From NCBI RefSeq assembly GCF_041381155.1, contig NC_091145.1, positions 42,125,697 to 42,189,696 of the forward strand: a DNA stretch of 64,000 nt. The letters are read 5' to 3'. Each line of letters starts with the position of its first letter. Within the stretch, counting starts at the first letter, position 1. The notes below the pieces were generated by a model. The model was not told the origin of the DNA. It was given only the letters and a program-made list of their open reading frames with translations, and searched no databases. Position numbers and translations under genes: made by a program. Positions 19,501 to 57,961 of the stretch are shown one piece after another. The stretch comes from Argopecten irradians (lineage: Eukaryota > Mollusca > Bivalvia > Pectinida > Pectinidae).

Positions 19501-22500
19501 GTACTTTCTGTGAAATAGCAGTAATAATAGGACAGACGATAGAAATATGTGATGATGGTGGGTTACAAATCCTAGACCAGGTACGTCAGTGACTAGGTAC
19601 TTTCTGTGAAATAGCAGTAATAATAGGACAGACGATAGAAACATGTGATGATGGTGAGTTACAAATCCTAGACCAGGTACGTCAGTGACTAGGTACTTTC
19701 TGTGAAATAGCAGTAATAATAGGACAGACGATAGAAATATGTGATGATGGTGGGTTACAAATCCTAGACCAGGTACGTCAGTGACTAGGTACTTTCTGTG
19801 AAATAGCAGTAATAATAGGACAGACGATAGAAATATGTGATGATGGTGGGTTACAAATCCTAGACCAGGTACGTCAGTGACTAGGTACTTTCTGTGAAAT
19901 AGCAGTAATAATAGGACAGACGATAGAAATATGTGATGATGGTGAGTTACAAATCCTAGACCAGGTACGTCAGTGACTAGGTACTTTCTGTGAAATAGCA
20001 GTAATAATAGGACAGACGATAGAAATATGTGATGATGGTGAGTTACAAATCCTAGACCAGGTACGTCAGTGACTAGGTACTTTCTGTGAAATAGCAGTAA
20101 TAATAGGACAGACGATAGAAATATGTGATGATGGTGGGTTACAAATCCTAGACCAGGTACGTCAGTGACTAGGTACTTTCTGTGAAATAGCAGTAATAAT
20201 AGGACAGACGATAGAAATATGTGATGATGGTGGGTTACAAATCCTAGACCAGGTACGTCAGTGACTAGGTACTTTCTGTGAAATAGCAGTAATAATAGGA
20301 CAGACGATAGAAATATGTGATGATGGTGAGTTACAAATCCTAGACCAGGTACGTCAGTGACTAGGTACTTTCTGTGAAATAGCAGTAATAATAGGACAGA
20401 CGATAGAAACATGTGATGATGGTGGGTTACAAATCCTAGACCAGGTACGTCAGTGACTAGGTACTTTCTGTGAAATAGCAGTAATAATAGGACAGACGAT
20501 AGAAACATGTGATGATGGTGGGTTACAAATCCTAGACCAGGTACGTCAGTGACTAGGTACTTTCTGTGAAATAGCAGTAATAATAGGACAGACGATAGAA
20601 ACATGTGATGATGGTGGGTTACAAATCCTAGACCAGGTACGTCAGTGACTAGGTACTTTCTGTGAAATAGCAGTAATAATAGGACAGACGATAGAAACAT
20701 GTGATGATGGTGAGTTACAAATCCTAGACCAGGTACGTCAGTGACTAGGTACATTCTGTGACAGCTGTTCATTATCACAAGTAGAACACTTGTCAAAGGA
20801 AATTTCTAATTGTCACCAAAAAATATGGAGAATTAATGATCTACAACATTTCCTTCCTGGCTAATCCATTCAGAATAAGGTCAAGATGCCCACCAGAGAG
20901 TTACGTACTAAAGTGTATGTTAACTACAGCTTCATCAAACCTACAGCCAATTAGGCACTGTTAAACGAGTGTTGGGGACGGCCAATCACAGCACTATAGC
21001 TCAATCTGCTACAGTAGGTCAATGTTCTTAGTGAAAATGATGATCATAACCAGGCAAAATTATAGTACCTCCAATAAATACAATCAGACAATAATAACAA
21101 CCTTTCAGATTGTAATGGCTTTTTTTTACATTCACAAATTGAATTTTCATTTACAAATGGAACATTATAAAAATAGTAACAATTTTTAATGTGGCAATGA
21201 CCTTGGAAGCCACCAGTACTGACATCGATACAGATTTGATGATTTTTGTTTTAGCAATGACTTTGAGTATGATAATCACTGACCTTGACAATAGTTTAGT
21301 CTCTTGTCACAGTAACCTCGAGTGTAACAAGTACTGACCTTGACCCTAATTTATGACCTTTATTATAATAATGACCTTGAGTATAATGAGTACTGACCTT
21401 GACACTAATTTATGACCATTATTATAACAATGACCTTGAGTGTAATGAGTACTGACCTTGACACTAATTTATGATCTTTATTATAACAATGACCTTGAGT
21501 GTAATTAGTACTGACCTTGACACTAATTTATGATCTTTATTATAACAATGACCTTGAGTTTAACGAGTACTGACCTTGACACTAATTTATGACTTTTATT
21601 ATAGCAATGACCTTGAGTGTAACAAGTACTGACCTTGACACTGATTTACGACCTTTATTACAACAATGACCTTGAGTGTAATAGATACTAACCTTTACAC
21701 TAATTCATGACCTTAATTATGACAATGACCTTGAGTGTAATGATTACTGACCTTGACACTAATTTATGATCTTTATTATAACAATAACCTTGAGTGTAAT
21801 GAGTACTGACCTTGACACTGATTTATGACCTTTATTATAATAATGATCTTGAGTGTAAAGAGTACTGACCTTGACACTAATTTATAACCTTAATTATAAC
21901 AATGACCTTGTGTGTAACGAGTACTGACCTTGACACTGTTTTATGATCTTTATTATAACAATGACCTTGAGTGTAAAGAGTACTGACCTTGACACTAATT
22001 TATGACCTTAATTATGACAATGACCTTGAGTGTAATGAGTACTGACCTTGACACTAATTTGTGGTCTTTTTTATAACAATGACCTTCATTGTGTATGAGT
22101 ACTGACCTTGACACCGATTTGATGAACTCCAAGGACACTAGACATTTATACTTTGGTGTGTCTATTTGGTCATCTCCGGCCACTTGTCCAAGCATGTTCA
22201 AACTGACCAGTGAAGAGATCTACAATAATGTCAACAAGAGGCCCATGGGCCTTAACGGTCACCTGAGTTAGAATATATAATGAAACAAATTAAAGACATA
22301 TAAACACTATATGCTGGGCCTTGAAGTTGGTCAGTGATTTGTAAATTTGACTTTTTAGGCTATGAAGAGTATTTGCTTCCATCAAACCTGTGAACTTAGA
22401 GGTATTTTTTGAAATTTTAATCATTTTGACCCTGTTTGGTCCTGCCCCTCTTGTCCCCCAGGGGGTCATCGAGGATGGATATGGATGTTAAAATGCTATA

Positions 22501-25500
22501 TCTAAGGCTTATAATTCTAATCAAGTTTGACTACGAAAATTGGGCAAATAATGTTCACAAATATGTTTTTCCTATATAAACTATAGTAAACTTGACCCCT
22601 CCCCAGGGGGTAACGTGAGACCCCAAGGTCATATAATTCACAATTTTTATAAAACACCTTAAGACCTTTCCATCTATAATTATTTGATTCTACTATATCC
22701 AGAATTTTAGAAGATTTTTGAAGTTTTAGCCTATTTGACCCTTTTTTAGCCCTGCCCCTCTGCCCTCAGGGGGTCGGCCAGGACCAATATATATGATATC
22801 ACAATGCTATCTCAGGCTAATAATTCTAACCAAAATTGAGCAAAAAATGCTCATTAATGTGTTTTTCCTATATAAACTATAGTAAACTTGACCCCCTCCC
22901 CAAGGGGAAACAGGAGACCCCAAGGTCATATCATTTACAATTTTCATAAACAAACTTTAAGACCTTTTCATCTATAAAGTGTATTTGATTATACCATTTC
23001 CAGAATTTTAAAAGAATATTTTTGAAGCTTTAGCCTATTTGACCTTTTTGGCCCCGCCCCTCTGCCCCAAGGGGGTCGGCCTGGACCAATATGGATATGA
23101 TATGCTATCTCAGGCTAATAATTCTAACCAAGTTTGACTCATTTCCTATGAAAATTGAGCAAAAAATGCTCATAAATGTGTTTTCCCTACATGAACTATA
23201 GTAAACTAGACCTCCTCCCCAGGGGGAAACGTGAGACCCCAGGGTCATATAATTCACAATTGTTGTAAAGGACCTTTTAAGACCTTTCTATTTATGAAAA
23301 GTATTTGATTCTACCATTTCCAGAAGTTCAGAAGAAGATTTTTGAAGTTTTAGCCTATTTGACCCTTTTTTAGCCCCGCTCCTCTAGCTCTGCCCCCAGG
23401 GGGTCGGCCAGGACCAATGTGGATATGATATTAAAATGCTATCTCAGGCTAATAATTCTAACCAAGTTTGACTCGTTTCCAATGAAAATTGAGCAAAACA
23501 TGCTCATAAATGTGTTTTCCCTATATGAACTATAGTAAACTAGACCTCCTCCCCAGGGGGAAACGTGAGACCCCAGGGTCATATAATTCACAATTTTTGT
23601 AAAGGACCTTAAGACCTTTCTATTTATGAAAAGTATTTGATTCTACCATTTCCAGAATTTCAGAAGAAGATTTTTGAAGTTTTAGCCTATTTGACTCCTT
23701 TTGACCCCGCCCCTAAGGCCCCTGGGGGTCAGTCATAGAAAATTTGTTAATAGGATTAAATGGCCATCTCATACTGATAATTCTGACAACATTTGACTCC
23801 TTTCCTATTACAAATGACCAACTAATACTCAAAAATGAGTTTTCCAACTATAGTAAACTTAACCCCCTCCCCAGGAGGAAACTAGAGACCCCAGGGTCAT
23901 ATAATTCACAATTTTTGCAAAGGACCTCAAGACCTTTCTATCTATGAAGAGTATTTGATTCTACCACATCTGTGAGTAGAGAAGAAGATTTTTGAAATTT
24001 TACTCAATTTTACCCCTTTTGGCCCCTCCCACAGCCCCCCCGGGGGGGGGGGGGGGGGGGGGGGACCATATAATTCACAATTTTGATTGGCCTTATGCCT
24101 TAGAAGGTTTGTGGAAAATTTCATTGAAATTGCTTCAGCAGTTTTGGAGAAGAAGTCGAAAATGTAAATTGTGTACGGACATACGACGCACGACGACGGG
24201 ACAAAAGGCGATTAGAATAGGTCACTTGAGACTTCGTCTCAGGTGACCTAAAAATCCAATAGGGCGTTTAGGAGCTCATTGATATCTCTGTGCAGAATTA
24301 TGTCAGAGCTTTAAAAAAAGATATACAAATGTACTATTTACCAGTTTCCTATTAAATACATTTAAAAAATTCCAATCAAAGTTCAAATTTGAAACAGTTG
24401 ATCTACAGGAAAAAAAATAACCTTGATTATGTGTTAATCAATCTTATTTTATACTTTTAATTACTACAAATACATTAGTAGTAGGTGCTACATTTCATTA
24501 ATGATCAACTTACCTGTACAAATATATTAGCAGTATGTGCTACCTTTCATTGATGATCAACTTACCTGTACAAATATATTAGCATTAGGTGCTACCTTTC
24601 ATTGATGATCAACTTACCTGTACAAATATATTAGCAGTAGGTGCTACCTTTCATTGATGATCAACTTACCTGTACAAATATATTAGCAGTAGGTGCTACC
24701 TTTCATTGATGATCAACTTACCTGTACAAATATATTAGCAGTAGGTGCTACATTTCATTGATGATCAACTTACCTGTACGAATACATTAACAGTAGGTGC
24801 TACCTTTCATTGATGATCAACTTACCTGTACAAATGTATTAGCAGTAGGTGCTACATTTCATTGATGATCAACTTACCTGTACAAATATATTAGCAGTAG
24901 GTGCTACATTTCATTGATGATCAACTTACCTGTACGAATACATTAACAGTAGGTGCTACCTTTCATTGATGATCAACTTACCTGTACAAATGTATTAGCA
25001 GTAGGTGCTACATTTCATTGATGATCAACTTACCTGTACGAATACATTAGCAGTAGGTGCTATCTTTCATTGATAATCAACTTACCTGTACAAATATATT
25101 AGCAGTAGGTGCTATCTTTCATTAATGATCAACTTACCTGTACAAATATATTAGCAGTAGGTGCTACATTTCATTGATGATCAACTTACCTGTACAAATA
25201 TATTAGCAGTATGTGCTACCTTTCATTGATGATCAACTTACCTGTACAAATATATTAGCAGTAGGTGCTACCTTTCATTGATGATCAACTTACCTGTACA
25301 AATATATTAGCAGTAGGTGCTATCTTTCATTGATGATCAACTTACCTGTACAGATATATTAGCAGTAGGTGCTACATTTCATTGACAATCAACTTACCTG
25401 TACAAATATGTTAGCAGTAGGTGCTACATTTCATTGATGATCAACTTACCTGTACAAATATATTAGCATTAGGTGCTACCTTTCATTGACAATCAACTTA

Positions 25501-28500
25501 CCTGTACAAATATATTAGCAGTAGGTGCTACCTTTCCCTCAACGATGGAGAAGAAAATCGCCATAAGTCTGTCAATAGGGAAGTGTTTAGGACCCAACAT
25601 GTGGTTACTGGTCTGAAACAGTCAACAATATCAGATTATTCTATCACAAGGATTTTATTACCGAGTTCAAGGTTACTAAAGGCAATGTGACAGGTCTCTT
25701 GTGCCTCTTGGTAATCCAAAAGTTGCTTGAAATATCAGTATACTATAATTCTATTGTTTCACTACTGTAGGTATTTAAATGTTTTACTAGGAACATTCAG
25801 CCAATCAACAACACTTGTATTATCAGTATATAACACTTACCAGCTGTAATCAGACTAATTTGTTTAGGATTGGTCAATACTCACAGGTCCTCGTACTGAT
25901 ACTTCAAAATATCAACATGATTTTCAAGTGGAAAATACAAATATTAAGTAGCACTAATTATGACTTTCCTCCTTAGACCAGGGAAAGCGTTTCTAACTTC
26001 ATTAATTTTAAGAGACTCCTTGGGTTTCTAGTGCTCGTTTGCCTCGGTTTTCACAAGGAAAATATTTTTATCTCTCAGAAGTCAAACAGATAGACTTTGT
26101 TACATTGACGAAATTTTACCTGAATGATGGTCAAGGTCATTCATTTCTATAAAATCTATAGCCCCCAAATCCAACATAATAAAGTCTCAAATATAAGGTC
26201 TAAATCTGATGAAAAGGTTATTTACAGGTATTTAACTTTATCCCATTGGTCTGATCAAATGGTAAAATTTATAAATTTAAACAAATTTTTAATTTATCTG
26301 CCCCAACAATCATACATCCAATCCCTAGTTTAGTTATGATTTTATTTGAAATAAACAATTAAAGTCATATCAGGACATAAAGGAAATTGTATATATAATA
26401 AGTGTATTGGGGAGACTGCTGTATTTATACATGGTGTGCCTTCATGTGATAAGTGTGTTTGGGAGACTGCTGTATTTATACACGGTGTGCCTTCATGTGA
26501 TAAGTGTGTTTGGGAGACTGCTGTATTTATACACGGTGTGCCTTTATGTGATAAGTGTATTTTGGAGACTGCTGTATTTATACACGGTGTGCCTTCATGT
26601 GATAAGTGTATTGGGGAGACTGTATTGGGGAGACTGTTGTATTTATACACAGTGGGAGACTGCTGTATTTATACACGGTGTGCCTTATGTGATAAGATTG
26701 TTTGGGAGACTGCTGTATTTATACACGGTGTGCCTTTATGTGATAAGTGTGTTTGGGAGACTGCTGTATTTATACACGGTGTGCCTTTATGTGATAAGTG
26801 TGTTTGGGAGACTGCTGTATTTATACACACGGTGTGCCTTTATGTGATAAGTGTGTTTTGGAGACTGCTGTATTTATACACGTGTGCCTTTATGTGATAA
26901 GTGTTTTGGAGACTGCTTATATACACGGTGCCTTATTGATAGTGTTTGGAACTGCTGTATTATACACGGTGTGCCTTCATGTGATAAGTGTATTGGGAGA
27001 CTGTTGTATTTTACACAGTGTGCCTTCATGTGATAAGTGTGTTTGGGAGACTGCTGTATTTATACACGTGTGCCTTCATGTGATAAGTGTATTGGGGAGA
27101 CTGTTGCATTTATACACGGTGTGCCTTTATGTGATAAGTGTGTTTGGGAGACTGCTGTATTTATACACGGTGTGCCTTTATGTGATAAGTGTATTGGGGA
27201 GACTGTTGTATTTATACAAGTGTGCCTTTATGAAAGAGTGTGTTTGGGAGACTGCTGTATTTATACACAGTGTGCCTTCATGTGATAAGTGTGTTTGGGA
27301 GACTGTTGTATTTATACACGGTGTGCCTTTATGTGATAAGTATTTTTGGGGATGTGTTTTATACTGTGTGCTTATTTAGTTTTTTGGGAGACTGCTGTAT
27401 TTATACACGGTGTGCCTTTATGTGATAAGTGTGTTTGGGAGACTGCTGTATTTATACACGGTGTGCCTTTATGTGATAAGTGTGTTTGGGAGACTGCTGT
27501 ATTTATACACGGTGTGCCTTCATGTGATAAGTGTGTTTGGGAGACTGCTGTATTTATACACGGTGTGCCTTCATGTGATAAGTGTGTTTGGGAGACGTTT
27601 GTTTGCTGTATTTATACACGGTGTGCCTTTATGTGATAAGTTTGTTTGGGAGACTGCTGTATTTATACACGCTGTGCCATTATGTGATAAGTGTATTTTG
27701 GAGACTGCTGTATTTATACACGGTGTGCCTTCATGTGATAAGTGTATTGGGGAGACTGCTGTATTTATACACGGTGTGCCTTCATGTGATAAGTGTGTTT
27801 GGGAGACTGCTGTATTTATACACGGTGTGCCTTCATGTGATAAGTGTGTTTGGGAGACTGCTGTATTTATACACGGTGTGCCTTTATGTGATAAGTGTAT
27901 TGGGGAGACTGTTGCATTTATACACGGTGTGCCTTTATGTGATAAGTGTATTGGGGAGACTGCTGTATTTATACACGGTGTGCCTTCATGTGATAAGTGT
28001 GTTTGGGAGACTGCTGTATTTATACACGGTGTGCCTTCATGTGATAAGTGTGTTTGGGAGACTGCTGTATTTATACACGGTGTGCCTTTATGTGATAAGT
28101 GTGTTTGGGAGACTGCTGTATTTATACACGGTGTGCCTTTATGTGATGTGTATTTTGGAGACTGCTTATTTATCACTGTGTGCCTTTATGTGATAAGTGT
28201 ATTTTGGAGACTGCTGTATTTATACACAGTGTGCCTTCATGTGATAAGTGTATTGGGGAGACTGCAATATTTTTTACAACTATTTAAAAGAAAATGGTGA
28301 CACAGGAAGAACAGATAATATCCTTTTAGCTAGATGTGCCAATATTTTAGCTTTATTTTGATTCAGATGGACTAGAAGGTATACTATATAATACAGTAGT
28401 GGTGAGGTTTGTGTACTTACCCTCTCATGTTTCTTAATAAATTTGGCTCTCCTGTCAACTTTACCAGAGTTCTGAAAGTAAAAAGCTTTCAATATATTGA

Positions 28501-31500
28501 CTGCTTGTATAAATAAAAGCATTTAAAAACGTAACAAGATTGTTCATGTCAATGTGCAAGCTTGTTGAAGGACCCAGACACATCCTACCTGGGGTATACA
28601 TATCAGATAAACTAGTCCTCCAATAATACTCTTAGTCTCTTATGATATTTAGATACTGTTGACATTATATTTTACAGAATGTATCTTTACACATTAATAC
28701 CATTGCCATGTGGATACTGTGATAATGATAATATAAAGTAAATCTTTACATTTTAATATTATTGATTTATAAAGAATTTTTATGTAAGTTACAATGTAGA
28801 TCAATTTTAATCATTGTGATCCTGCTTGTTGGTCGTGATAAATATGTTAGAGAGCAGAAACAATGAACATATTGCCAATTAACAACATAGAACCCAGATC
28901 CTAGCATTATAAAGATATTCCAAAATAGTGTTATGTAGCCTGACACATGTTGTAATTGCTAATACATCTGAAAGGTTGTAAATTGTGTGAAGATCGCTTC
29001 TGTACTTTCTGAGAAACAGCGATAACAAATTTCAATGATGAAATCAAAGATGGCAGCCGGTTGGTCATCTTGTTGACCAATCAGTCCAAAATGCAATATG
29101 CACAACAAGGACCCTAGGGAAACATACATATGCAATTTGAGACAGATCCCTTCAGAACTTTCTGAGAAATAGCGGTAACAAACTTTAACTATCAAAATTC
29201 AAGATGGCGGCCGATCGGCCATCTTGTTTGTGGATCAGTCTCAAAATGCAATATGCGCAACTAGGGTTCTAGGGGAACCTACCTATGATCGGTCGGACCC
29301 AAAATGCAATATGCACCACTAGGGCCTTAGGAGAACTTGTATGTGAAATTTGGGCTAAAAACTACAATTTTACCCAAATAAGGCAAATAGCCTTATACAT
29401 ATTATAATTACTAATACAACCCAAAGGCTGTAAAGTGTGTGTAGTTTTCTGATCAAACTCTCTCACTAAAATCTACAAACCTACCCTGGCAAAAAACCTG
29501 CGATCAGTCTTGGCTGGATTGTAGGAAGCCAGGTAAGCTGCGATCAACAGATACTTGGAATAGTATGGAAGTTCTACATGGTTTCTTGATGACAAACCTA
29601 CAAATGATAAATAGTTAGAACAGTTTGTAACACAGCCTGTACCTCAATATCAAAGTACGATGTGACACAAGATTACAAGTAATACTGTAACACATGCTTA
29701 TAGTGAGGCACCATATACATAATTATACATTTCAGATCTACGCAAATTATAATAGAGAATCTTAACATTTCTTTGTTTCACTAAGATGCCTTGAACATAT
29801 TATTCATTTCATTATTATGATTCTGAAGAATTTTTTTTCTCTTGAGAAAAAATTCCATTATTATAGTTCTGAAGGATTTGTTTTCTTTTGAGAAACAAGA
29901 GGCCCAGAGGGCCTGTATCGCTCACCTGGTTTGTAATGCCAAGTAATGTTCTGAATACAGGTTCATTGTTTCTTTTCTGAAGGAATTTTAATATTTACCT
30001 TTAATTCCCCTATTAAGCCCTGCCCCTCCTGCCCGAAGCGGGTCAGGGGCAAAATTTATACAAGTTCTGTTCCCCTTCTCCCAAGGATGTTTGTGGCCAA
30101 ATTTGGTTACAATCCATGCAAAACTCTAGGACAAGTAGCAATTCATAGGATTAACCACTATTTCTCCTATTGGGCCCCACCCCTCTCATCCCTGGGGGGT
30201 CAGAGCCAAAATTTATACAAGTTCTGTTCACCTTCCCCCAAGGATGTTTTTGACCAAATTTGGTTACAATCCATGCAGAACTCTAGGACAAGTAGTGATT
30301 TATAGAATTACCTCTTTTCCCCAATTGGGCCCCGCCTCTCCTGCCCCCGGGGGGTCAGAGCCAAAATTTATACAAGTTCTGTTCCCCTTCCCCCAAAAAT
30401 GTTATTGGCCAAATTTGGTTACAATCCATGCAGAACTCTGGGACAAGTAGCAATTTATAGAATTTACCTCTATTTTCCCTATTGGGCCCCGCCCCTCTTG
30501 TCTCTTTGGGGTCAGAGCCAAAATTTATACAAGTTCTGTTCACCTTCCCCCAAGGATGTTTGTGGCCAAATTTGGTTACAATCCATGCAGAACTCTAGGA
30601 CAAGTAGCGATTTAAAGGATTTACCTCTATTTCCCCTATTGGGCCCTGCCTCTCCTGCCCCCAGGGAGGTCAGAGCCAAAATTTATACAAGTTCTGTTCC
30701 CCTTCCCCCAAGGATGTTATTGGCCAAATTTGGTTACATACCATGCAGAACTCTAGGACAAGTAGCAATTTATAGGATTTACCTCTATTTCCCCTATTGG
30801 GCCCTGCCCCTCCTGCCCCTAGGGAGTCAGAGCCAAAATTTATACAAGTTCTGTTCCCCTTCGCCCAAGGATGTTTGTGGCCAAATTTGGTTACATACCA
30901 TGCAGAACTCTAGGACAAGTAGCGATTTATAGGATTTACCTCTATTTCCACTATTGGGCCCCGCCCCTCCTGCCCCCGGGGATCAGAGCCAAAATTTATA
31001 CAAGTTCTGTTCCCCTTCCCCCCAAGGATGTTTGTGGCCAAATTTGGTTACAATCCACGCAGAACTCTAGGACAAGTAGCGATTTAAAGGATTTACCTCT
31101 ATTTCCCCTATTGGGCCCCACCCCTCCTGCCTCTGGGGGTCAGAGCCAAAATTTATACAAGTTCTGTTCCCCTTCTCCCAAGGATGTTTGTGGCCAAATT
31201 TGGTTACAATCCATGCAAAACTATAGGACAAGTAGCAATTCATAGGATTAACCACTATTTCTCCTATTGGGCCCCACCCCTCTCATCCCTGGGGGGTCAG
31301 AGCCAAAATTTATACAAGTTCTGTTCACCTTCCCCCAAGGATGTTTTTGACCAAATTTGGTTACAATCCATGCAGAACTCTAGGACAAGTAGTGATTTAT
31401 AGAATTACCTCTTTTCCCCAATTGGGCCCCGCCTCTCCTGCCCCCGGGGGGTCAGAGCCAAAATTTATACAAGTTCTGTTCCCCTTCCCCCAAAAATGTT

Positions 31501-46500: not shown

Positions 46501-48834
46501 TTATTGAGGATCTTCTCGTACATAAATCTCTGATTGTAACATTCCACACAATTCACCATCACGTGGGGAAGCTGTAGATAAAGGGAAGTAATTAATACTA
46601 CTTAAAATATTCTGTACTATTCTAGCTTCCAACCTTAAAATCAATATCAATACTAATAAATCAGCGTAAGCTATAAGTTATACCATATCATCTATTGATG
46701 TTATAGATTTGACACTGAACCACTATAATATCTGTGAACCAACATTCTTTCGTTTGCAATTTATTTTTGCACACTTCAAGCAGAATACCAATGGTGGTAA
46801 TATGAGGTCAAAGACTATAACAAAGGAGGGAGGAGTGTAGCAGGACTGGGTCAATCAATCATTGGCGACCAAGTAGCTCAATAAGTAAATCGACTAGGAA
46901 GTATTTGGAGGTCCCAGGTTTGAGCCCCGGTCTATAGTTAGTCGCTACATTGTATTTCCTCCTGTTACATTTGTATACAAATAATGAGAAATTTACCAAC
47001 ACAGCAAACAATATTCTAATTTGCATTAACATCGTATCTTAGTAACTAAATGTCAAGGGAATTGTAAGTTTAGCATGGAAATACATTGAAGCTCTACCAG
47101 GTAGTAATCTGTGGGAAGCTTTACCTTAAACAAGAAAAGGCCAAAGTTTTTACCTCTAGTATCAGAAGCTAGTCTGATATGGCAACTGGCTGTCTTGTTC
47201 TTTTCGTCAATATAAAATTTAGATATGAAAATACTGAAATCTTACCTGTAATGTCTGAAGAAGTGAGTTTATGATGAGTGACTTGCCCGTCCCTGTGTGT
47301 CCATATATAAACAAAGCTGGTGGTGCCACCTGGTCTCGCTGAAATACAACATTTTAACTCCTGTCTAAATGTATATTGCATGCCTATAAATGATACCATT
47401 ATAATGTATAGTATTTTTGATAACATTATAATTACCTTAATAGTTGATATCAATATATAATTACCTTGATCCGTTGTAATTACATAAATACCAAGGTCCA
47501 TTATAATTACATTGATGCCATTATAATTACATTGATGCCATTATAATTACATTGATGCCATTATAATTACATTGGTGCTATAATTTCATTAATACCATTA
47601 TAATTACATTGATGCCATTATAATTACATTGATGCCATTATAATTACATTGATGCCATTATAATTACATTGATGCCATTATAATTACATTGATGCCATTA
47701 TAATTACATTGATATCATTCTAATTACATTAATAGTTGATATCATTATATGTTTACCTTGATATCATGATTTATTACATTTATGACATTATAATTACATT
47801 GATACCATTATAATTACATTGATACCATTAATTATAATTACATTGATGCCATTATAATTACATTGATACCATTATAATTACATTGATGCCATTATAATTA
47901 CATTGATACCATTATAATTACATTGCCATTATAATTACATTGATACCATTATAATTACATTGATACCATTATAATTACATTGATGCCATTATAATTACAT
48001 TGATATCATTCTAATTACATTAATAGTTGATATCATTATATGTTTACCTTGATATCATGATTTATTACATTTATGACATTATAATTACATTGATACCATT
48101 ATAATTACATTGATACCATTATAATTACATTGATACCATTATAATTACATTGATACCATTATAATTACATTAATGCCATTATAATTATATTGATGTCATT
48201 ATTTCTATCTTGATACCAATATAATTACATTGATATCATTATAATTACATTGATATCATTATAATTACATTGATACCATTATAATTACATTGATACCATT
48301 ATAATTACATTGATACCATTATATCTATCTTGATACCATTATAATAACATTGATATCATGATAATTACATTGATATCATTAAAATTACATTGATATCATT
48401 CTAATTACATTGATATCATTCTAATTACATTAATAGTTGATATTATTATATGTTTACCTTGATATCATGATTTATTACATTTATGACATTATAATTACAT
48501 TGATACCATTATAATTACATTGATATCATTATAATTACATTGAAATCATTATAATTACATTGATACCGTTATAATTACATTGATACCATTATATCTACCT
48601 TGATACCATTATAATTACATTGATACCATTATAATTACATTTATACCATTATAATTACATTGATATCATTATAATTACATTGATACCATATCTACCTTGA
48701 TACCTTTATAATTATATTGATACCATTATATCTACCTTGCCTGTGAGAGATACTAATGTCTTGATCTGCTGGTCCCGACAACAGATTTTATCGGACATGA
48801 TCTTGACTGGATCCTCTATATCCATAGTGGTCAT
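13489..48834 (-). CDS. ORC5: Origin recognition complex subunit 5, 14 exons
   Basis: AAA+ subunit of the nuclear origin recognition complex, which binds origins and loads MCM helicase. The gene was rebuilt from 14 exons, all flanked by GT/AG with matching phases, giving 1344 nt and 447 residues (human ORC5 is 435). The start is the ATG at 48834, with an in-frame TAG upstream. The Walker A motif GHTGTGKS is at residues 46-53 (exon 2). The Walker B segment VYIVLDKAE spans the exon 3/4 junction (D134, E137). Other recognisable ORC5 segments are [108 protein letters not shown] and a C-terminal [11 protein letters not shown], covering AAA+ core, lid and winged-helix region. Introns total about 34 kb, mostly arrays and transposons. 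Five donors are embedded in tandem arrays. Assignment is firm from family resemblance; exon ends are predicted, not transcript-tested. Confidence 0.95.
13738..17210. repeat. 33-bp minisatellite in ORC5 intron 13
   Basis: Roughly 100 copies of GGTACATTGGTTACTAGG + TAACATATATCACCT, with an alternative ending ACACAGGTCACCT. The near-palindrome GTTACTAGGTAAC sits in each unit. Because 33 is divisible by three, frames stay open on both strands, for example repeated [11 protein letters not shown] on the minus strand; these have no other gene-like property. Copies at about 16300-16620 are ragged. Confidence 0.96.
17211..17784. other. Decayed interspersed repeat modules
   Basis: Contains degenerate modules of an element seen better at 28930 and 34480: a stretch like GAGAAAGATTCCTTCGGTAC, GAAA(T)AGCGGTAACAAACTTC, CAAAATCCAAGATGGCTGC. 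The final module passes directly into the 96-bp array. Confidence 0.6.
17785..20755. repeat. 96-bp minisatellite in ORC5 intron 13
   Basis: About 31 copies of a 96-bp unit that starts GTACTTTCTGTGAAATAGCA and includes GATGATGGTGGGTTACAAAT and CAGGTACGTCAGTGACTAG. The 96-bp period keeps minus-strand frames open for up to 660 codons (18814-20796; unit [20 protein letters not shown] and so on). Its left border reads straight out of an interspersed-element module (17740-17790), so the array probably arose from it. Confidence 0.96.
20756..21179. other. Single-copy part of ORC5 intron 13
   Basis: No gene or repeat recognised. One AG on the minus strand (near 20935) could open a short FDEAVV... frame, but exon 14 at 13489 fits far better. 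Confidence 0.6.
21180..22106 (-). repeat. 59-bp array seeded at the ORC5 exon 13 donor
   Basis: About 16 copies, on the minus strand reading GTGTCAAG|GTCAGTACTCAT followed by TACACTCAAGGTCATTGTTA and TAATAAAGGTCATAAATTA. GTGTCAAG is the end of exon 13 and GTCAGT its donor, so each unit carries a copy of the splice site. Each unit also has two TCAAGGTCA motifs. Divergence between copies is higher than in the other arrays, which suggests it is older. Confidence 0.93.
22107..22219 (-). CDS. ORC5: ORC5 exon 13
   Basis: 113 nt coding [20 protein letters not shown] then [17 protein letters not shown]. Acceptor TTGTAG|ATCTCT, donor TCAAG|GTCAGT, phase 2. A transposon starts 13 bp upstream of the acceptor, and the exon end plus donor are repeated in the 59-bp array that follows. 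Confidence 0.94.
22233..24250. mobile_element. Non-autonomous interspersed element with internal ~300-bp repeats
   Basis: Starts AACAAGAGGCCCATGGGCC, containing the perfect palindrome GGCCCATGGGCC, then GGTCACCTGAG; it ends with GAGACTTCGTCTC and CTCAGGTGACC. GGTCACCTGAG and CTCAGGTGACC are inverted ends. The interior repeats about five times a module with CTATAGTAAACTTGACC, CCCCAGGGGG, AAGACCTTTC, TTTTGAAGTTTTAGCC and GCCCCTC. No coding frame. A run of about 25 G follows seven C near 24040. The layout resembles other bivalve elements with repetitive cores; exact family not identified. Confidence 0.75.
24470..25501 (-). repeat. 52-bp array seeded at the ORC5 exon 12 donor
   Basis: About 20 copies. 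On the minus strand each unit is AAAGGTAGCACCTACTGC + TAATATATTTGTACAG (34 nt identical or nearly so to the end of exon 12, coding [11 protein letters not shown]) followed by GTAAGTTGATCATCAATG, the donor and first intron bases. The copy nearest the exon is the real one. Confidence 0.96.
25502..25612 (-). CDS. ORC5: ORC5 exon 12
   Basis: 37 codons, [20 protein letters not shown] then [17 protein letters not shown]. Acceptor TTTCAG|ACCAGT, donor GTACAG|GTAAGT. The last 34 nt of the exon and the donor are repeated about 20 times through the start of intron 12 (52-bp array). Confidence 0.95.
25613..26396. other. Single-copy part of ORC5 intron 11
   Basis: AT-rich intron sequence with no feature recognised; the frame at 26124-26333 has no gene-like property. 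Confidence 0.6.
26397..28270. repeat. 51-bp minisatellite in ORC5 intron 11
   Basis: About 36 copies of TTTGGGAGACTGCTGTATTT + ATACACGGTGTGCCTTCATG + TGATAAGTGTG. The 51-bp period keeps several frames open on both strands (for example [17 protein letters not shown]). Copies between 26880 and 27040 are ragged. The start of the unit resembles TTTTGGGAGACTGCGGTAT in the interspersed element at 41866-42250. Confidence 0.96.
28421..28471 (-). CDS. ORC5: ORC5 exon 11
   Basis: A 51-nt exon coding [17 protein letters not shown], a basic helix. Acceptor TTTCAG|AACTCT, donor GAGAGG|GTAAGT, phase 0. Confidence 0.92.
28930..29345. mobile_element. Interspersed element modules, intron 10
   Basis: About three modules with GACAGATCCCTTCAGAACTT, GAGAAATAGCGGTAACAAAC, AAAATTCAAGATGGCGGCC, GGCCATCTTGTT, AAAATGCAATATGC and AGGG(T/C)CCTAGGGGAACC. 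The same modules occur at 17.3, 34.5-35.3, 37.6-38.2 and 39.3 kb. Coding potential not seen; family not named. Confidence 0.7.
29485..29597 (-). CDS. ORC5: ORC5 exon 10
   Basis: 113 nt coding [20 protein letters not shown] then [17 protein letters not shown], the most conserved C-terminal helix of ORC5. Acceptor TTGTAG|GTTTGT, donor GCCAGG|GTAGGT, phase 0. Confidence 0.95.
29893..33377. mobile_element. Non-autonomous element with 157-bp core repeats
   Basis: Begins AACAAGAGGCCCAGAGGGCC and TCGCTCACCTGG; ends CACCGGCCCTTTGGGCC and CCAGGTGAGCT, so GCTCACCTGG/CCAGGTGAGC form inverted ends and both ends carry GGCCC-loop-GGGCC hairpins. The core is about 21 copies of a 157-bp module (CCTATTGGGCCCCGCCCCTC, GGGGGTCAGAGCC, AAAATTTATACAAGTTCTGT, AAGGATGTTTGTGGCC, CATGCAGAACTCTAGGAC). 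A (GACG)n run at about 33290-33325 precedes the right end. Open frames inside come from the repeats. Same architecture as 22233-24250. Confidence 0.82.
33378..34296. other. Single-copy part of ORC5 intron 9
   Basis: AT-rich intron sequence; nothing recognised. Confidence 0.6.
34297..34355 (-). CDS. ORC5: ORC5 exon 9
   Basis: 59 nt coding [20 protein letters not shown]. Acceptor TCTCAG|CTCTCA, donor TACAAG|GTATTA. It matches the variable SQWEKLQ region of ORC5. Confidence 0.9.
34480..35395. mobile_element. Interspersed element with repeated modules, intron 8
   Basis: Starts near GAGATCCTAGAGGGATCTTGG (hairpin GATCC...GGATC) and ends near CACCCACATCTCGATGTGGGG (hairpin). Between are about five modules of 150-170 bp with AAAATGCAATATGC, CTAGGGGAA, GAGACAGATCCC, GAGAAATAG(C)GGTAACAA, CCAAGATGGCTGCC and GGCCAT(C)TTGTTGA. 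Best-preserved copy of the family also seen at 17.3, 28.9, 37.6 and 39.3 kb. Confidence 0.75.
35520..37409 (-). repeat. 64-bp array seeded at the ORC5 exon 8 donor
   Basis: About 29 copies. On the minus strand each reads AACAGAAGTGTCTAG|GTATGTATCAGCATCAG followed by AATCTATATTGTCACGTATA and ACTAACTAGTG. GAAGTGTCTAG is the last 11 nt of exon 8 and GTATGT its donor. Two scrambled copies lie at about 36955-37100. A T/C variant (GATGTTG/GATGCTG) is grouped in blocks, showing local copy spreading. Confidence 0.96.
37410..37500 (-). CDS. ORC5: ORC5 exon 8
   Basis: 91 nt coding [20 protein letters not shown] and QTVYLREVS. Acceptor TTACAG|CAGAAG, donor TCTAG|GTATGT, phase 2. The last 11 nt and the donor start the 64-bp array of intron 8. 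Confidence 0.94.
37560..38184. mobile_element. Decayed interspersed element modules, intron 7
   Basis: Begins near CAGAGAGGGATCTGTGTGCC and carries modules of the family at 34480 (CAAGATGATTGCAG, AACATGGCTGCTCTTCGGCC, GGTCCCAAAAAGCAATGTGC). It runs into the 43-bp array, and module remnants continue after the array at 39250-39340. Confidence 0.65.
38185..39250. repeat. 43-bp minisatellite in ORC5 intron 7
   Basis: About 25 copies of TTAATCACAAAGCTATAGTG + ATAACAAAGTTAACTTTAATTCC, each with the palindrome GTTAAC. First and last copies merge into interspersed-element modules (CCCTTCATTAATCTCTGAGC at 38200, GTCAAAATCCATGGTGGC at 39250), so the array lies inside such an element. Confidence 0.95.
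39539..39587 (-). CDS. ORC5: ORC5 exon 7
   Basis: A 49-nt exon coding [16 protein letters not shown]. The phases (0 in, 1 out) fit exons 6 and 8, and the peptide matches the NFPKYCEPVVKGE segment of vertebrate ORC5. Acceptor AATAG|GCTGG is weak in pyrimidines; donor GAGAAG|GTCAGT. Confidence 0.88.
39600..40860. repeat. 88-bp minisatellite in ORC5 intron 6
   Basis: About 14 copies of a unit with AACATATCTGATCAGGTAAA, TATGTACAGGAGATAAATAT, AGAATGTCAAAATAAATTAA and TACTGATATTGTAGTTAAC. The first partial copy lies within about 25 bp of the exon 7 acceptor but no exon sequence is included. Confidence 0.93.
40915..41690 (-). repeat. 37-bp array seeded at the ORC5 exon 6 donor
   Basis: About 21 extra copies. 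On the minus strand the unit is TGTGTAGGGACCTCAG + GGAAATCCGATATCTG|GTGAG. The first 32 nt match the end of exon 6 ([11 protein letters not shown]) and GTGAG is the donor, so 86 percent of the unit is exon sequence. Small variants such as ATCTGA for ATCGGA and CCATTA for CCCTCA are scattered. Confidence 0.96.
41691..41821 (-). CDS. ORC5: ORC5 exon 6
   Basis: 131 nt, [14 protein letters not shown] to [11 protein letters not shown]. Acceptor TTTTAG|ATGAAG. The donor ATATCTG|GTGAGT is the first of about 22 nearly identical donors, because the last 32 nt of the exon and the donor are tandemly repeated through intron 6. The exon-proximal donor is chosen; later ones would insert 37 bp each. Confidence 0.92.
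41866..42250. mobile_element. Interspersed element in ORC5 intron 5
   Basis: Starts TTTGTTTGTTTGATTAATTA then ACGTCCTATTAACAGC and includes GTAAGGACGGCCTCTCATGG, TTTTGGGAGACTGCGGTAT, CACTGAAGCATGCCGCCGAA, ATACCCCACCCGGTCACATT and GACAGAACCCAGTGCCTTCC. GC-richer than its surroundings and with a SINE-like look. I associate this sequence with repeats common in bivalves, but the family name is not certain. Confidence 0.65.
42390..42501 (-). CDS. ORC5: ORC5 exon 5
   Basis: 37 codons plus one base: [18 protein letters not shown] and [18 protein letters not shown]. This is the sensor-region strand and following loop of the AAA+ core. Acceptor ATACAG|ACAAAA, donor CTAAAG|GTATTA, phase 1. Confidence 0.94.
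42580..44085. repeat. About 48-bp minisatellite in ORC5 intron 4
   Basis: Roughly 30 copies of GACAGATAGTGATAGATAGT + GCTAAATAAGAGTATCTCCC + CTTTGACAT, with length variants lacking TTTGACAT or with an added AGA before TCTCC. No exon sequence included. Confidence 0.94.
44086..45069. other. Single-copy part of ORC5 intron 4
   Basis: Contains a 44100-44470 stretch with GGGACTCCTAAAATAAAATG, GGGAGTCCTTGGGACTC and AGGAGTCCCTAAGACCCCC, which may be a degraded transposon. No coding frame supported. Confidence 0.4.
45070..45144 (-). CDS. ORC5: ORC5 exon 4 (Walker B)
   Basis: 25 codons beginning [10 protein letters not shown], the Walker B acidic pair D134/E137, and ending FLRLQEL. Acceptor TTTCAG|GTGTTA, donor GAGTTG|GTAAGT, phase 0. 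Confidence 0.95.
45700..46370 (-). repeat. 74-bp array seeded at the ORC5 exon 3 donor
   Basis: About nine copies. On the minus strand each starts AGTATATATT|GTAAGTATGGG, the last 10 nt of exon 3 plus the donor, followed by TGGGTGTGGTTAGATCTGTA and TACACACGCATAGAAAAATA. Alternating unit types (CCCAT and CTTTTT before ACTTAC) form a two-unit higher-order pattern. Confidence 0.95.
46371..46571 (-). CDS. ORC5: ORC5 exon 3
   Basis: 67 codons, [13 protein letters not shown] to KQTVYI, the largest exon. The acceptor is CTACAG|CTTCCC and the donor is TATATT|GTAAGT, phase 0. The last 10 nt of the exon plus the donor are the seed of the 74-bp array that fills the start of intron 3. Confidence 0.95.
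46864..46935 (+). mobile_element. tRNA-derived SINE fragment in ORC5 intron 2
   Basis: A tRNA-like stretch with an A-box-like GTAGCTCAATAAGT and a B-box-like GGTTTGAGCCCC at tRNA spacing. Stem bases do not pair well enough for a working tRNA, so a SINE head or a tRNA pseudogene is more likely. The intron around it (46572-47245) is otherwise single-copy. Confidence 0.55.
47246..47338 (-). CDS. ORC5: ORC5 exon 2 (Walker A)
   Basis: 31 codons containing [20 protein letters not shown], the P-loop of the AAA+ domain. Acceptor TTTCAG|CGAGAC and donor TTACAG|GTAAGA are both phase 0. Confidence 0.95.
47500..48735 (-). repeat. 20-bp minisatellite filling ORC5 intron 1
   Basis: About 60 copies of ATAATTACATTGATACCATT (plus strand) with longer variant blocks (AATAGTTGATATCATTATAT, GTTTACCTTGATATCATG) that themselves recur at about 47.73, 48.03 and 48.43 kb. 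Several units near exon 1 read, on the minus strand, CAAGGTAGATATAATGG, identical to the exon 1 donor region. Confidence 0.95.
48736..48834 (-). CDS. ORC5: ORC5 exon 1
   Basis: 33 codons, from [11 protein letters not shown] to SLTGK. A second ATG lies three codons downstream. An in-frame TAG seven codons upstream of the first ATG bounds the start. The donor is GGCAAG|GTAGAT, phase 0. The intron begins directly with the 20-bp array. Confidence 0.85.
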
Positions 48835-48837
48835 CAG

Positions 48838-49490: not shown

Positions 49491-50009
49491 GGCTGCATAT
49501 TCTACCAAACTCAGAAGGCAGTCTTCCCATGACTGCAGTAATGGAAGGGTTGCCTTCTGATAGCATTGGCCGAAAGGAATATTATTCAATGAATATATAG
49601 CTTAAAGGAATTTATGAATGGAAGTTTATGAATGAAATGGTTCAAGAGGCCACCACTAGATGCCATTGTAGGGCAATATAGTATACCATATAGATAGCCA
49701 TAATACAAATGCTACGTGTTGTATTAAAAATTAACAGGATAAAATAAATAAACATTGACTAATATTTCTATTGATATCGATACTATACATTCAATTATTT
49801 GTGACAAAACTGCCGGGAATGCATACACGGATTTATTTGTAGGTGATTGTGGACATTATTCATGTTTTATTTTGTTTGTTGTTTTCTCAAATAACGTTAA
49901 CTGTGAACAATGATAATTACAATAACATGACTAACATATAATAAACCAACATCTGTGCTATCACTGCATTGTCATCATCTATACAAGGGTTTGCATATAA
50001 AGCCTTGAC

Positions 50010-50113
50010 CTATAGCAGGTGCTCCAAATCAGTAGTAGTTTGATACACATGTACACGTGCAGTTACTGAGTATATGCGATTGCGTATCAAACTATTTGGA
50101 GCGCTTGCTATAG
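50010..50113. repeat. 104-bp inverted repeat (hairpin)
   Basis: The left arm CTATAGCAGGTGCTCCAAAT pairs with right arm ATTTGGAGCGCTTGCTATAG, with two mismatches that would be G-U pairs in RNA. AGTTTGATAC pairs with GTATCAAACT further in, after a 7-nt bulge. It could be a small MITE or a transcribed hairpin. Confidence 0.75.
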
Positions 50114-50594
50114 AATTATACCGTGTCTTCATGCATGAATTACAAAGTGTATATGTTATATATCCTCCTTACTTAATTACTTCTGTGTAGGACCCATAGA
50201 AAGAATTACCTGCAGCTGATCTTCAAGCCTTTATTTTTCCCACCAAAATGCCAAGATTTAATTCTACTTCCTGTTTCCGGCAAAATATGACCCATGACCT
50301 CTGCATCTATAATGAGCCATGTGGTATTCTTAAAATAGCTCTGGCGGAACAGGTTTATGCATGGCGATGTCAACAACAGGTAAGCGCAGCCAATCGCGAG
50401 ACCGAGGTAGAAACCTGTTCTACCAGTTTGATCGGGCGCTATTTTTAGATTGTATTTCCATTGATAGAGGCTACGAAACGTAGACCTCACCCTCCGTTTA
50501 CAACTGACACACGAGGTCCGATTTCGGCAAGTGGAAGAGACGTCGGGAGACTGTAAATATCGCACAAACAGGTGCGACAGATCCGAGTAGCATC

Positions 50595-51024
50595 ATGACG
50601 TCCGTTATAGATCCGAATGTGTCTAAATTCAACCCAGAGACAGCAAGGGTCTATCATTTTCGTTACATGAGAGAATACCGTGCTATTTGTGCATTATGGG
50701 GTTTGCTTACTATCATCTGGTGTATTTTGAATCTGGTGACATTTATACAGCCTCAGTGGATTGGAGATAGTCCTCAGTCCCCGGGGTACGGTCATCTGGG
50801 CGTGTACGCTAACTGTTACCCCGACCATGGTCGTGGGGAGTATGTGTGTGACGGGTCCCCATTCAGCTGGGATTCCATCCTCAACAACTCCTTCAAAGCT
50901 ACATCATTCTTCGTCGGTGTGTCAGCATTACTGATGCTCATCACTGTGGCTGCTCTTCTCTTCTTCTTCTGCTTCAAGAAAACCCTGGTCTTCTACTTGT
51001 GTGGAATTATGGAAATCATTTCGG
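50595..51024 (+). CDS. LHFPL-like exon 1
   Basis: 143 codons plus one base, from MTSVIDPNVSKF through most of membrane segment 3 (IMEIIS). The donor is TTCGG|GTATAA, phase 1. Reading on past the donor gives a stop at 51056. Confidence 0.93.
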
Positions 51025-54000: not shown

Positions 54001-57000
54001 AATAACCCAACCACTCTGTGATCCATTCCTCCCCCTCCACTACCCAATACAAACATCCCCTATAATAACCCAACCACTCTGTGCTCCATCCCCCCTCCAC
54101 TACCCAATACAAACATCCCCTATAATAACCCAACCACTCTGTGCTCCATCCCCCCTCCACTACCAAATACAAACATCCCCTATAATAACCCAACCACTCT
54201 GTGCTCCATCCCTCCGCCCCCCACTACCCAATACAAACATCCCCTATAATAACCCAACCACTCTGTGCTACATCCCCCCTCCACTACCCAATACAAACAT
54301 CCCCTATAACAACCCACTACTCTGTGCTCCATCCCTCCCTCCACTACCCAATACAAACATCCCCTATAATAACCCAACCACTCTGTGCTTCATCCATCCC
54401 CTCCACTATCCAATACAAACATCCCCTATAATAACCCAACCACTCTGTGCTCCATCCCCTCCCCCCACTACCCAATACAAACATCCCCTATAATAACCCA
54501 ACCACTCTGTGCTCCATCCATCCCCTCCACTATCCAATACAAACATCCCCTATAATAACCCAACCACTCTGTGCTCCATCCATCCCCTCCACTACCCAAT
54601 ACAAACATCACCTATAATAACCCAACCACTCTGTGCTTCATCCATCCCCTCCACTATCCAATACAAACATCCCCTATAATAACCCAACCACTCTGTGCTC
54701 CATCCCTCCCCCCACTACCCAATACAAACATCCCCTATAATAACCCAACCACTCTGTGCTCCATCCATCCCCTCCACTATCCAATACAAACATCCCCTAT
54801 AATAACCCAACCACTCTGTGCTCCATCCATCCCCTCCACTACCCAATACAAACATCACCTATAATAACCCAACTCCTCTGTGCTCCATCCCCCCCCCTCC
54901 ACTACCCAATACAAACATCCCCTATAATAACCCAACTACTCTGTGCTCAATCCCTCCCCCAACTACCCAATACTGAGCCCCTCACTCTACTTTTAAAATA
55001 CATTAGCACCTGCTAATAACACATCCACCCAGTTCTCTCATTAAACTCCCCAAAACAATATACTAACATATGTATACCCCCTTCATGACAATGACACACA
55101 TCACCCAAATGGGTCTGATCACTTCTCAAGAGGCTCTTTAAAATGATGAGCCCCTTTATAATAACATGACCATTCCTCCAAACGCCTTTCCCTCCATTAG
55201 CCAATACAAACAAAATCATAACCCCTTCCCCTCTTGACTATAGCCAACACAAACATCCTCCTAATAAGATCAGTATTTGTCCCATTTGATTCATTTGAGT
55301 CCACATTATCACCCCCTAAAATGAAATATGAGGGATGCCATTGAGGAGACTTTGGTATCCTATAGTTACAACTTTGTGTCCCTCCACCGTGTGTATGGTG
55401 GAAGTTCTATATTGTTTGACCTGCATCAGCTAGTCCTTGAAGGCTTGACTTTATAATGACTAATTACAGCACACATTAAAATTTGATTATATTATTACTC
55501 TTTTATATAACATTATACCTAATCAAATTGATTTCATATTTTGATTATCTATATATGTCAATATACATGCTATTTTGTTGGCTCAGTAAATACACACAGC
55601 TATATAATTTGGTGCTTAAAATCAAATAAGACAGTGTTTTAAGGGTCTTGATCATGAGTACCAATCTCAAAATACAAACAGCAGACAATCTACAGTTTTA
55701 ATGTCAATAAACAGACAATTGTTTGATGCTTTGGACATTTAGATACACTTATGTATACATGTTGTTTCTACATGCAGTTCTATATATGAGAGCAATTACA
55801 ATTCCAAAGGAAGTTATCAACAAATGTAGAAGAGGTTCTAGATGTGTTGTCAAGAAATTGAAAATGTAACCTTTAATTGATTATGTTATAAAACTTGTAT
55901 TTTAAGGGTATTCTAGCAGTGGCGTAGCGCCCTTGCATGCTTGAGCATGCAAAAAATGATCTTTTGCATGGCCTGTGACTTACAAAGATTATATACTGAC
56001 TATTTCAGCCCTATTTATGTCCTGGTCTGTGACTTACTAAGATTACACTGACTTTTTCAACCCTGTGTATGTTCCTGGTCTGTGACTTACTAAGATTATA
56101 TACTGACTATTTCAGCCCTGTTTATGTTCCTGGCCTGTGACTTACTAAGATTATACTGACTGTTTCTGCCCTGTTTATGTTCCTGGCCTATGACTTACTA
56201 AGATTATACTGACTGTTTCTGCCCTGTTTATGTTCCTGGCCTGTGACTTACTAAGATTATACTGACTGTTTCTGCCCTGTTTATGTTCCTGGCCTATTAC
56301 TGACTATTTTAGCTCTATTTATGTTCCTGGCCTGTGACTTGCTAAGATTATACTGACTATTTCAGCACTTTTTATGTTGTTGGTCTGTGATTTACTAAGA
56401 TCATACCTACTATTTTAGCGCTATTTATGTTCCTGGCCTGTGACTTACTATGATTATACTGACTTTTTTCAGCACTATTTATGTTCCTGGCCTGTGACTT
56501 ACTAAGATTCTACTGACTATTTCAGCCCTGTTTATGTTCCTGGTCTGTGACTTACTAAGATTATACCTGTACTGACTATTTCAGCCCTGTTTATGTTCCT
56601 GGCCTGTGACGTACTAAGATTATACTATTTCAGCCCTGTTTATGTTGTTAGTATGTGACTTACTAAGATTTTACCGACTATTTCAGCCCTGTTTATGTTC
56701 CCGGCCTATGAATTACTAAGATTATACTGACTATTTCAGCCCTGTTTATGTTCCTGGCCTGTGACTTACTAAGAATATAATAACTATTTCAGCATTATTT
56801 ATGTTCCTGGTCTGTGATTTACTAATATTATACTGACTATTTCAGCCCTGTTTATGTTGTTGGTCTGTGATTTACTAAGATTATACCTGTACTGACTATT
56901 TCAGCCTTATTTATGTTCCTGGCCTGTGACTTACTAAGATTATATACTGACTATTTCAGCCCTCTTTATGTTGTTGGCATGTGACTCACTAAGATTATAC

Positions 57001-57961
57001 TGACTATTTCAGCCCTGTTTATGTTCCTGGTCTATGGTTTACTAAGATTATACTGACTATTTCAGCCTTATTTATGTTCCTGGTCTATGATTTACTAAGA
57101 TTATACTGACTATTTCAGCCTTATTTATGTTCCTGGCCTGTGACTTACTAAGATTATACTGACTATTTCAGCCCTGTTTATGTTCCTGGCCTGTGACTTA
57201 CTAAGATTATACTGACTATTTCAGCCCTCTTTATGTTGTTGGCATGTGACTCACTAAGATTATACTGACTGTTTCAGCACTGTTTATGTTCCTGGCCTGC
57301 GTGATTTACCCGAGTGGATGGAATCAGCCCGAGGTAAAGACTATCTGTGGTGACATGGCGGGTGAATACCGCCTCGGGGAGTGTGGTGTCCGCTGGGGCT
57401 ACATACTCGCCATCCTTGGTATATTTGATGCAGCCTTCCTTGCTGTCCTTGCTTTTCTCCTAGCCACAAAACGTGCCAAGCTGGAGATGTACTCGACGAC
57501 AGGAACAGTGACCAAGTGTGAGTATAATTCTGATACTATCTTTTATTCAATAGCAGGAACATCAGATGGAATATCTATAGCTTTACAAACATTACCACTT
57601 TAATGAAAGCAGGAAAATTTATCTGGTGAGATGGTTTTACAAAATACCAATAAATTTAATGAAAGCAGAACCTCTAGAAAACTTTATCGTGTTCTATTCA
57701 GTACATTTCTAAGAGATCTGTTTTTCAGGAGAATATAAGATGATTCAGTGTAGACTCGTAGAAAACTTGACTTTGTTCTATACATGTATTTTATTTCGGA
57801 TTCTCACTTGAATATATATTGTTAATATGTTCGTGATTACAGCGGAGCTGAATGGTTACTCTGGTGACACTCTTTCCAAGCATTCCATACCAATCCAGCC
57901 TGTGGTGGCCGTTCCAGACTCTCAGTACGGTGGGACTCGACGCGGTGACTTTACCCTGTGA
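50595..57961 (+). CDS. LHFPL-family tetraspan membrane protein, 3 exons
   Basis: Three exons (50595-51024, 57278-57517, 57843-57961) join in frame to 262 residues. Membrane segments: about 31-52 (ALWGLLTIIWCILNLVTFIQ), 109-133 (FFVGVSALLMLITVAALLFF), 137-160 (LVFYLCGIMEIISALFMFLA) and about 190-212 (WGYILAILGIFDAAFLAVLA). The first loop has the family pattern FIQPQWIGD and paired cysteines (YANCYPD, EYVCDG). The second has YPSGW and CGDMAGEYRLGECGVRW, typical of LHFPL proteins. It looks closest to the LHFPL3/4/5 (TMHS) group, whose vertebrate members work with hair-cell channels or GABA-A receptors; the molluscan role is not known. Start ATG follows AGCATC. The array before exon 2 repeats its acceptor. 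Confidence 0.92.
51025..51597. other. Start of LHFPL-like intron 1
   Basis: AT-rich single-copy intron, no feature recognised. Confidence 0.6.
51598..54985. repeat. 60-bp minisatellite in LHFPL-like intron 1
   Basis: About 56 copies of CTCTGTGCTCCATCCCCCCT + CCACTACCCAATACAAACAT + CCCCTATAATAACCCAACCA, very C-rich on this strand. The length of the C run varies (CTCCCCC to CCCCCCCCC). Open frames on both strands are by-products. Copies around 52850-52920 are ragged. Confidence 0.96.
54986..55955. other. Middle of LHFPL-like intron 1
   Basis: Mostly single-copy. At 55918-55960 is CAGTGGCGTAGCGCCC followed by the hairpin GCATGCTTGAGCATGC; the first motif resembles ends of DNA transposons, but no matching second end is seen. 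Confidence 0.45.
55956..57277 (+). repeat. 53-bp array seeded at the LHFPL-like exon 2 acceptor
   Basis: About 25 copies of CTGACTATTTCAG|CCCTGTTTATGTTCCTGGCC + TGTGACTTACTAAGATTATA. The 22 nt after TTTCAG match the start of exon 2, including the phase (G|CC for G|CA, both Ala). Each unit also has TACTAAG and CTGAC, both good branch-point sequences. Several copies vary (TGTTGTTGG for TGTTCCTGG). Confidence 0.95.
57278..57517 (+). CDS. LHFPL-like exon 2
   Basis: 240 nt, starting LFMFLACVIYPSGWN after the split Ala codon (G|CA), through the fourth membrane segment to GTVTK. Acceptor TTTCAG|CACTG, donor CAAGT|GTGAGT, phase 1. The preceding array carries about 25 earlier copies of the acceptor. 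Confidence 0.94.
57518..57842 (+). other. LHFPL-like intron 2
   Basis: A 325-bp intron with no feature beyond the splice sites. Confidence 0.8.
57843..57961 (+). CDS. LHFPL-like exon 3
   Basis: 119 nt, the cytoplasmic tail from ELNGYSGDTLSKHS to GGTRRGDFTL and TGA. Acceptor ATTACAG|CGGAGC; split Ser codon T|CG. The end FTL could be a PDZ-type tail, which is an inference. Confidence 0.88.

Follow-up and report, generated by a model that had tools for sequence, protein, structure and literature searches.

Tandem arrays spanning splice junctions in scallop genes, with a probable bias towards 5′ splice sites across the genome

The window analyzed here, i.e. the whole stretch of 64,000 bases at G000:C12:42125697-42189696 of a single haploid scallop assembly (846 Mb), holds a gene for ORC5 on the minus strand and, as its neighbour on the plus strand, an LHFPL-like gene (PF10242). 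The coding region of ORC5 comprises 14 exons at 13489..48798, counted from the methionine taken as the start through the stop codon, with the true start possibly lying slightly further upstream. All of its 13 introns have GT-AG ends, and the joined exons give 435 amino acids followed by a stop codon, with the ORC5 of Pecten maximus being the closest database protein (92% identity). When aligned with five animal ORC5 proteins, the product was free of gaps at all five junctions bearing the arrays described below. Tandem arrays, as found by TRF and merged by hand, cover 35,960 of the 64,000 bases of the window (56%). A first-pass annotation of this DNA had described splice-junction arrays in these two genes within 21180..57300, a span that ORC5 passes at the lower limit, reaching 13489.

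The proposal that five ORC5 introns open with arrays made of the end of the preceding exon together with the 5′ splice site was confirmed, and these arrays all read on the minus strand. At exon 3 (array 45692..46380, exon end 46371) the period was 74/75, with 10 exonic nt in the unit and 10 copies, whereas exon 6 (40916..41723, exon end 41691) had a period of 37, 33 exonic nt and 21 copies. The array of exon 8 (35527..37420, exon end 37410; period 64, 11 exonic nt, 28 copies) was extended by eye, as TRF ends it at 37402 and so misses the junction by 8 nt, and its spacings are irregular close to the exon. Exon 12 (24465..25536, exon end 25502; period 52, 35 exonic nt) had CAG|GTAAGT in each of its 20 copies, and exon 13 (21315..22114, exon end 22107; period 59, 8 exonic nt) had 16 junction-like matches, two of which fell outside the main register. 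A sixth case at exon 1, from the beginning reported as weak, is indeed so: the period-20 array of intron 1 (47498..48730, minus strand) is begun by TRF 5 nt into the intron, with exon 1 ending at 48736, and the end of that exon can be traced only weakly in the unit.

In the LHFPL-like gene, an intron ends in a 3′ splice-site array on the plus strand (55969..57299, exon start 57278; period 53, 22 exonic nt), again as first annotated, with the junction backed by PF10242 on both sides (model positions 2-117 and 117-181, respectively). The exonic shares given earlier hold for exons 3, 8 and 13 and for LHFPL, while those of exons 6 and 12 are to be corrected from 32 and 34 nt to the values above. 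Sequences and periods differ among these arrays. They are distinct, and each extends from the exon edge into the intron, also in agreement with the earlier description. The LHFPL intron additionally contains, at window positions 51606-54973, a 3.4-kb array with a 60-bp unit that is strongly C-rich on the plus strand, and the GC skew around it was -0.73 (window 52001-56000).

The splice signals were well kept in the repeated units. Searching for ORC5 junction copies with at most five mismatches in 16 nt, we found GT kept in all of the 95 copies at exons 3, 6, 8, 12 and 13, and the AG was kept in 21 of 25 junction-like copies of the LHFPL array. Most array copies departed little from their consensus; the exon 8 and exon 13 arrays include a few that are strongly rearranged. 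The donor appeared at first to be conserved within the units as if functional (pooled Fisher P 1.1e-6), a sign undone by window ranking, in which its conservation relative to other parts of the unit was not significant (combined P 0.30). Reading on past the first donor, an in-frame stop follows after 42, 9, 49, 6 and 109 nt in introns 3, 6, 8, 12 and 13, respectively, and after 21 nt in intron 1; in LHFPL, the nearest in-frame stop upstream lies 31 nt before the acceptor used. The ORC5 arrays contact introns on the donor side only (five introns, using TRF limits plus exon 8), and many arrays in this gene contain no donor at all.

We compared the locus with random placement in two ways, the resulting P values being post hoc throughout, for a locus picked as striking. 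Shuffling of arrays within their own introns, with an exon overlap of up to 40 nt permitted, gave means of 0.91 donors and 0.91 acceptors spanned; using TRF limits, 4 donors and no acceptors were observed (P(≥4) 0.003), and with exon 8 added the five donors gave P(≥5) 0.0003. When the arrays were instead removed from the introns and each was represented there by a single founder unit, the mean was again 0.91 donors, with P(≥5) 0.0005, or 0.016 when donors and acceptors were pooled. By both within-intron nulls (P 0.0003-0.0005 for five), donor arrays at this locus thus exceed random placement, in line with the earlier interpretation. A circular-shift null over the gene (mean 8 donors) was discarded as uninformative because arrays can swallow whole exons. 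As the locus had been selected for being striking, exons elsewhere in the genome were also examined.

Family searches gave 82 myosin-head and 80 dynein DHC_N2 exon matches, of which one myosin match straddling two pieces and 20 dynein matches were left out. The sample used was therewith 81 myosin and 60 dynein exons, or 141 exons in 284 kb, from motor-gene loci chosen as such rather than drawn at random from the genome, with exon ends taken as HMM match ends (accurate to some tens of nt) and with TRF score limits of 80 (myosin loci) and 60 (dynein loci). Array coverage in the two sets was 10.7% and 10.5%, as compared with 56% in the window. Junction-spanning arrays recur here, at one myosin donor (L041, 210-857; period 54, 12 copies, 39 exonic nt) and two dynein donors (L052, period 47, 18.7 copies, about 25 exonic nt; L053, period 52, 9 copies, about 48 exonic nt), and at one myosin acceptor (L015, 2997-5545; period 60, 42 copies, 19 exonic nt). 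These four cases contradict the view that ORC5 is a special locus; what sets it apart is the unusual abundance of arrays in its introns. A weak donor array, L003, falls outside the count of three donors.

With regards to frequency, the three junction-spanning donor arrays among 141 exons showed no clear excess over the 1.9 expected from unit density, nor did the myosins alone, with one donor and one acceptor spanned as against 1.25 expected for each. Array edges, on the other hand, crowd the donors: 10 lay within 50 nt of a donor and 13 at 50-500 nt, which by exposure is a 2.8-fold density (P 0.014; 141 exons), whereas at the acceptors of the same exons the numbers were 4 and 17 (0.87-fold, P 0.68). 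Considering only arrays of at least 100 bp, the donor edges numbered 7 versus 11 (2.35-fold, P 0.069) and the acceptor edges 3 versus 16. Several candidates were rejected as junction arrays: L039 (1892-2140) begins about 24 nt inside the intron, L045, L046 and L047 start no more than about 30 nt from the donor with no exon sequence in the unit, and L049 extends to the acceptor region, likewise without exon sequence in its unit; the latter four were counted solely as edges in the edge test.

For the whole genome, we counted triples of 9-base words, defined as three copies separated by gaps of 20-50. The donor word CAGGTAAGT gave 3383 such triples versus 101 for the reversed word, and the donor word CAGGTGAGT gave 2118 versus 306. 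Two control words lacking the donor GT, each differing from CAGGTAAGT by one base, gave 556 versus 5 (CAGGAAAGT) and 542 versus 89 (CAGCTAAGT). Expressed as the share of occurrences starting a triple, this corresponds to 17.4% of 19404 for CAGGTAAGT and 21.8% of 9737 for CAGGTGAGT, with 7.6% of 7277 for the control CAGGAAAGT; the shares of the reversed words were 1.9% of 5409, 10.6% of 2883 and 0.1% of 5220, respectively, the 10.6% of one reversed control weakening the contrast. The acceptor word TTTTTACAG formed triples in 352 of 25149 occurrences versus 199 of 37321 when reversed, a weak 2.6-fold difference; as this word is not itself in excess, few of its places need be acceptors.

Because long arrays weigh heavily in triple counts, arrays were also counted by eye among the matches listed, assuming that the places are in contig order, as they appear. 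Among these matches, CAGGTAAGT had 4 arrays in 6.47 Mb of C1, CAGGTGAGT had 12 in 71.14 Mb of C1 (including the place at C1:62236508, where the printed letters are not a clean array), CAGGAAAGT had 7 in 324.3 Mb (C1-C5), three of them within the same 71.14 Mb, and CAGCTAAGT had 2 in about 222.5 Mb. Array density among the matches listed was thereby 7.8-fold higher for CAGGTGAGT than for CAGGAAAGT (P 1.6e-5; P 0.018 for 12 versus 3 arrays in the shared 71.14 Mb), and it was also higher for CAGGTAAGT than for CAGGAAAGT (P 4e-5) and, with 11 arrays taken for CAGGTGAGT, higher for that word than for CAGCTAAGT with its 2 in 222.5 Mb (P 8e-6). Single-word lists, in which any period was accepted, gave among the matches listed four arrays of at least three copies in 5.4 Mb for CAGGTAAGT, one in 10.7 Mb for CAGGTGAGT and one in 11.5 Mb for CAGGAAAGT, which is less favourable to a donor bias. 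At G000:C1:5016567-5017817 (period about 68) the listed copies are all CAGGAAAGT except for a CAGGTAAGT at 5017048, and a word can therefore change inside an array. The donor bias in words is probably real and coarsely measured, for arrays that are known from the words rather than from exons. As to the idea that arrays overlap splice sites genome-wide beyond random placement, the outcome is favourable overall, not settled: donor words are arrayed more than control words and edges crowd donors in the 141 exons, but the junction-spanning cases do not clearly exceed expectation.

Amplified splice junctions, which the first-pass annotation did not know as described, have a precedent of the same structure in amphioxus (PMC3087553, PMC3902484). 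PMC3087553 describes 'mirages' in globin genes and Adh3, in which exon-intron boundaries, at either 5′ or 3′ splice sites, are duplicated in tandem in the manner of minisatellites, with units from tens to 160 bp, AG/GT in most copies, and both normal splicing and instability reported. In the scallop, the unit likewise spans the exon-intron boundary at five ORC5 donors, one LHFPL acceptor, L041, L052, L053 and L015, at 5′ or 3′ sites, and splice signals are kept in the copies (donor GT in 95/95, LHFPL AG in 21/25). Undisturbed splicing, as in amphioxus, would be in line with the ungapped protein alignment of ORC5. The scallop arrays differ in belonging to another phylum, in having far more copies in several cases (up to 42), in occurring five times in one gene and in a probable donor bias at genome scale, of which the amphioxus account makes no mention. 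The lancelet genes PGBD5 and TnC, according to PMC3902484, carry tandem repeats of 60 and 108 bp over 5′ and 3′ splice sites that are thought harmless to splicing; splice sites are duplicated there as in the scallop, but with few copies and in a cephalochordate.

In duplicated genes of humans, internal tandem repeats that alter transcripts and may form new introns (PMC2812944) lie, like the scallop arrays, on exon-intron boundaries, but neither outcome is indicated in the scallop. Intron gain through tandem duplication (PMC4974935; the idea is also cited in PMC3087553) involves, as do the ORC5 arrays, the copying of a segment that carries splice signals. A gained intron is bounded by duplicated copies, whereas the ORC5 arrays are on the donor side only, and a new intron is not indicated because the aligned ORC5 product shows neither insertions nor gaps at the five junctions. 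A minisatellite in an intron of an abalone TSSK1-like gene is, in the available text of PMC6905558, not described as junction-spanning. In a literature search covering titles and abstract starts, mostly outside subscription journals, we found no mollusc or genome-wide case of junction arrays.

We interpret the arrays as mirages whose founding or survival is biased towards donors in this scallop genome, and give this reading a probability of roughly 0.6. The structure itself, its presence in further genes and a donor bias among words and array edges are observed, while the direction of growth, the choice of the proximal donor and a mutational origin of the bias are inferences. The founding step would be a short tandem duplication straddling a 5′ splice site, after which slippage or unequal exchange could expand the array into the intron while keeping the copies alike, so that their GTs stay intact. 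The working donor is most likely the exon-proximal copy, because under exon definition the upstream acceptor is joined with the donor closest to it, and because splicing at a donor further downstream would bring in an in-frame stop; with that copy remaining functional, the array would be tolerated. Exon definition is in general known to favour the donor nearest the exon. For L041, the translated pieces stay open in the coding frame, and distal splice sites would therefore add in-frame repeats and not stops. The donor bias of mirage arrays probably holds across the genome and, if real, is more plausibly mutational, reflecting a duplication preference near 5′ splice sites, than selected.

The strongest remaining rival has no preference in it: duplications would found arrays randomly in introns, those touching a donor would survive through their one intact junction, and ORC5 would have many donor arrays simply because its introns are mostly array. 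We consider this unlikely, even if the coverage of the window (56%, versus 10.7% and 10.5% for the motor-gene loci) and the near-expected number of spanning cases in the sample speak for it. Intron interiors should be equally harmless, yet array edges crowd donors; donor words exceed control words; and ORC5 by itself is above random expectation. Tolerance alone explains neither the preference for donors over the intron interior nor the absence of such a preference at acceptors. That the word excess comes mostly from dispersed satellites or minisatellites of mobile elements unrelated to exons, with the junction cases being separate and rare, would fit with arrays found through words alone, without link to exons, and with the CAGGTAAGT copy inside the period-68 CAGGAAAGT array; it is nevertheless very improbable, as the units of the four printed CAGGTAAGT arrays look unrelated (spacings of about 46, 41, 48 and 42). 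Least probable is selection for arrays that provide a long AT-rich intron with numerous U1-binding sites near its beginning, securing intron recognition or suppressing premature polyadenylation, as U1 does: the copies keep GT and the words in excess are strong-consensus donor words, but conservation of the donor does not significantly exceed that of other parts of the unit and many donor-less arrays are tolerated in the same gene.

A bolder version of the donor-biased reading, which we put forward tentatively, is that tandem amplification in this lineage acts preferentially on 5′ splice sites genome-wide, with a few per cent of donors arrayed and with seeding by events tied to donor recognition. 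Candidate events at exon ends would be U1 binding, nascent-RNA or R-loop stress, or nucleosome edges. If this is true, the spliceosome must choose the exon-proximal donor among up to 28 near-identical ones.

With these findings, junction arrays, known so far from individual genes of amphioxus, are extended to a mollusc. New here is the genome-wide test, by which signals at intron starts seem to occur in arrays at a higher rate than the words used for comparison. The donor-specific bias thereby suggested turns the origin of junction arrays into a countable genome-wide question. The arrays also constitute natural tests of splice-site choice, with rows of 10 to 28 near-identical donors in ORC5 where the first alone keeps the frame, and with two acceptor arrays (25 and 42 copies) in which the conserved protein requires use of the last copy.

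Some further observations can be added. The periods of L041 and L015 (54 and 60) are both divisible by three. Finally, a myosin exon of L002 contains at 5102-5344 a 118-bp tandem duplication of two copies, left uncounted as lying inside the exon, in which the frame is shifted between the copies and which could represent an allele, an error in the assembly or a junction duplication of very recent origin.
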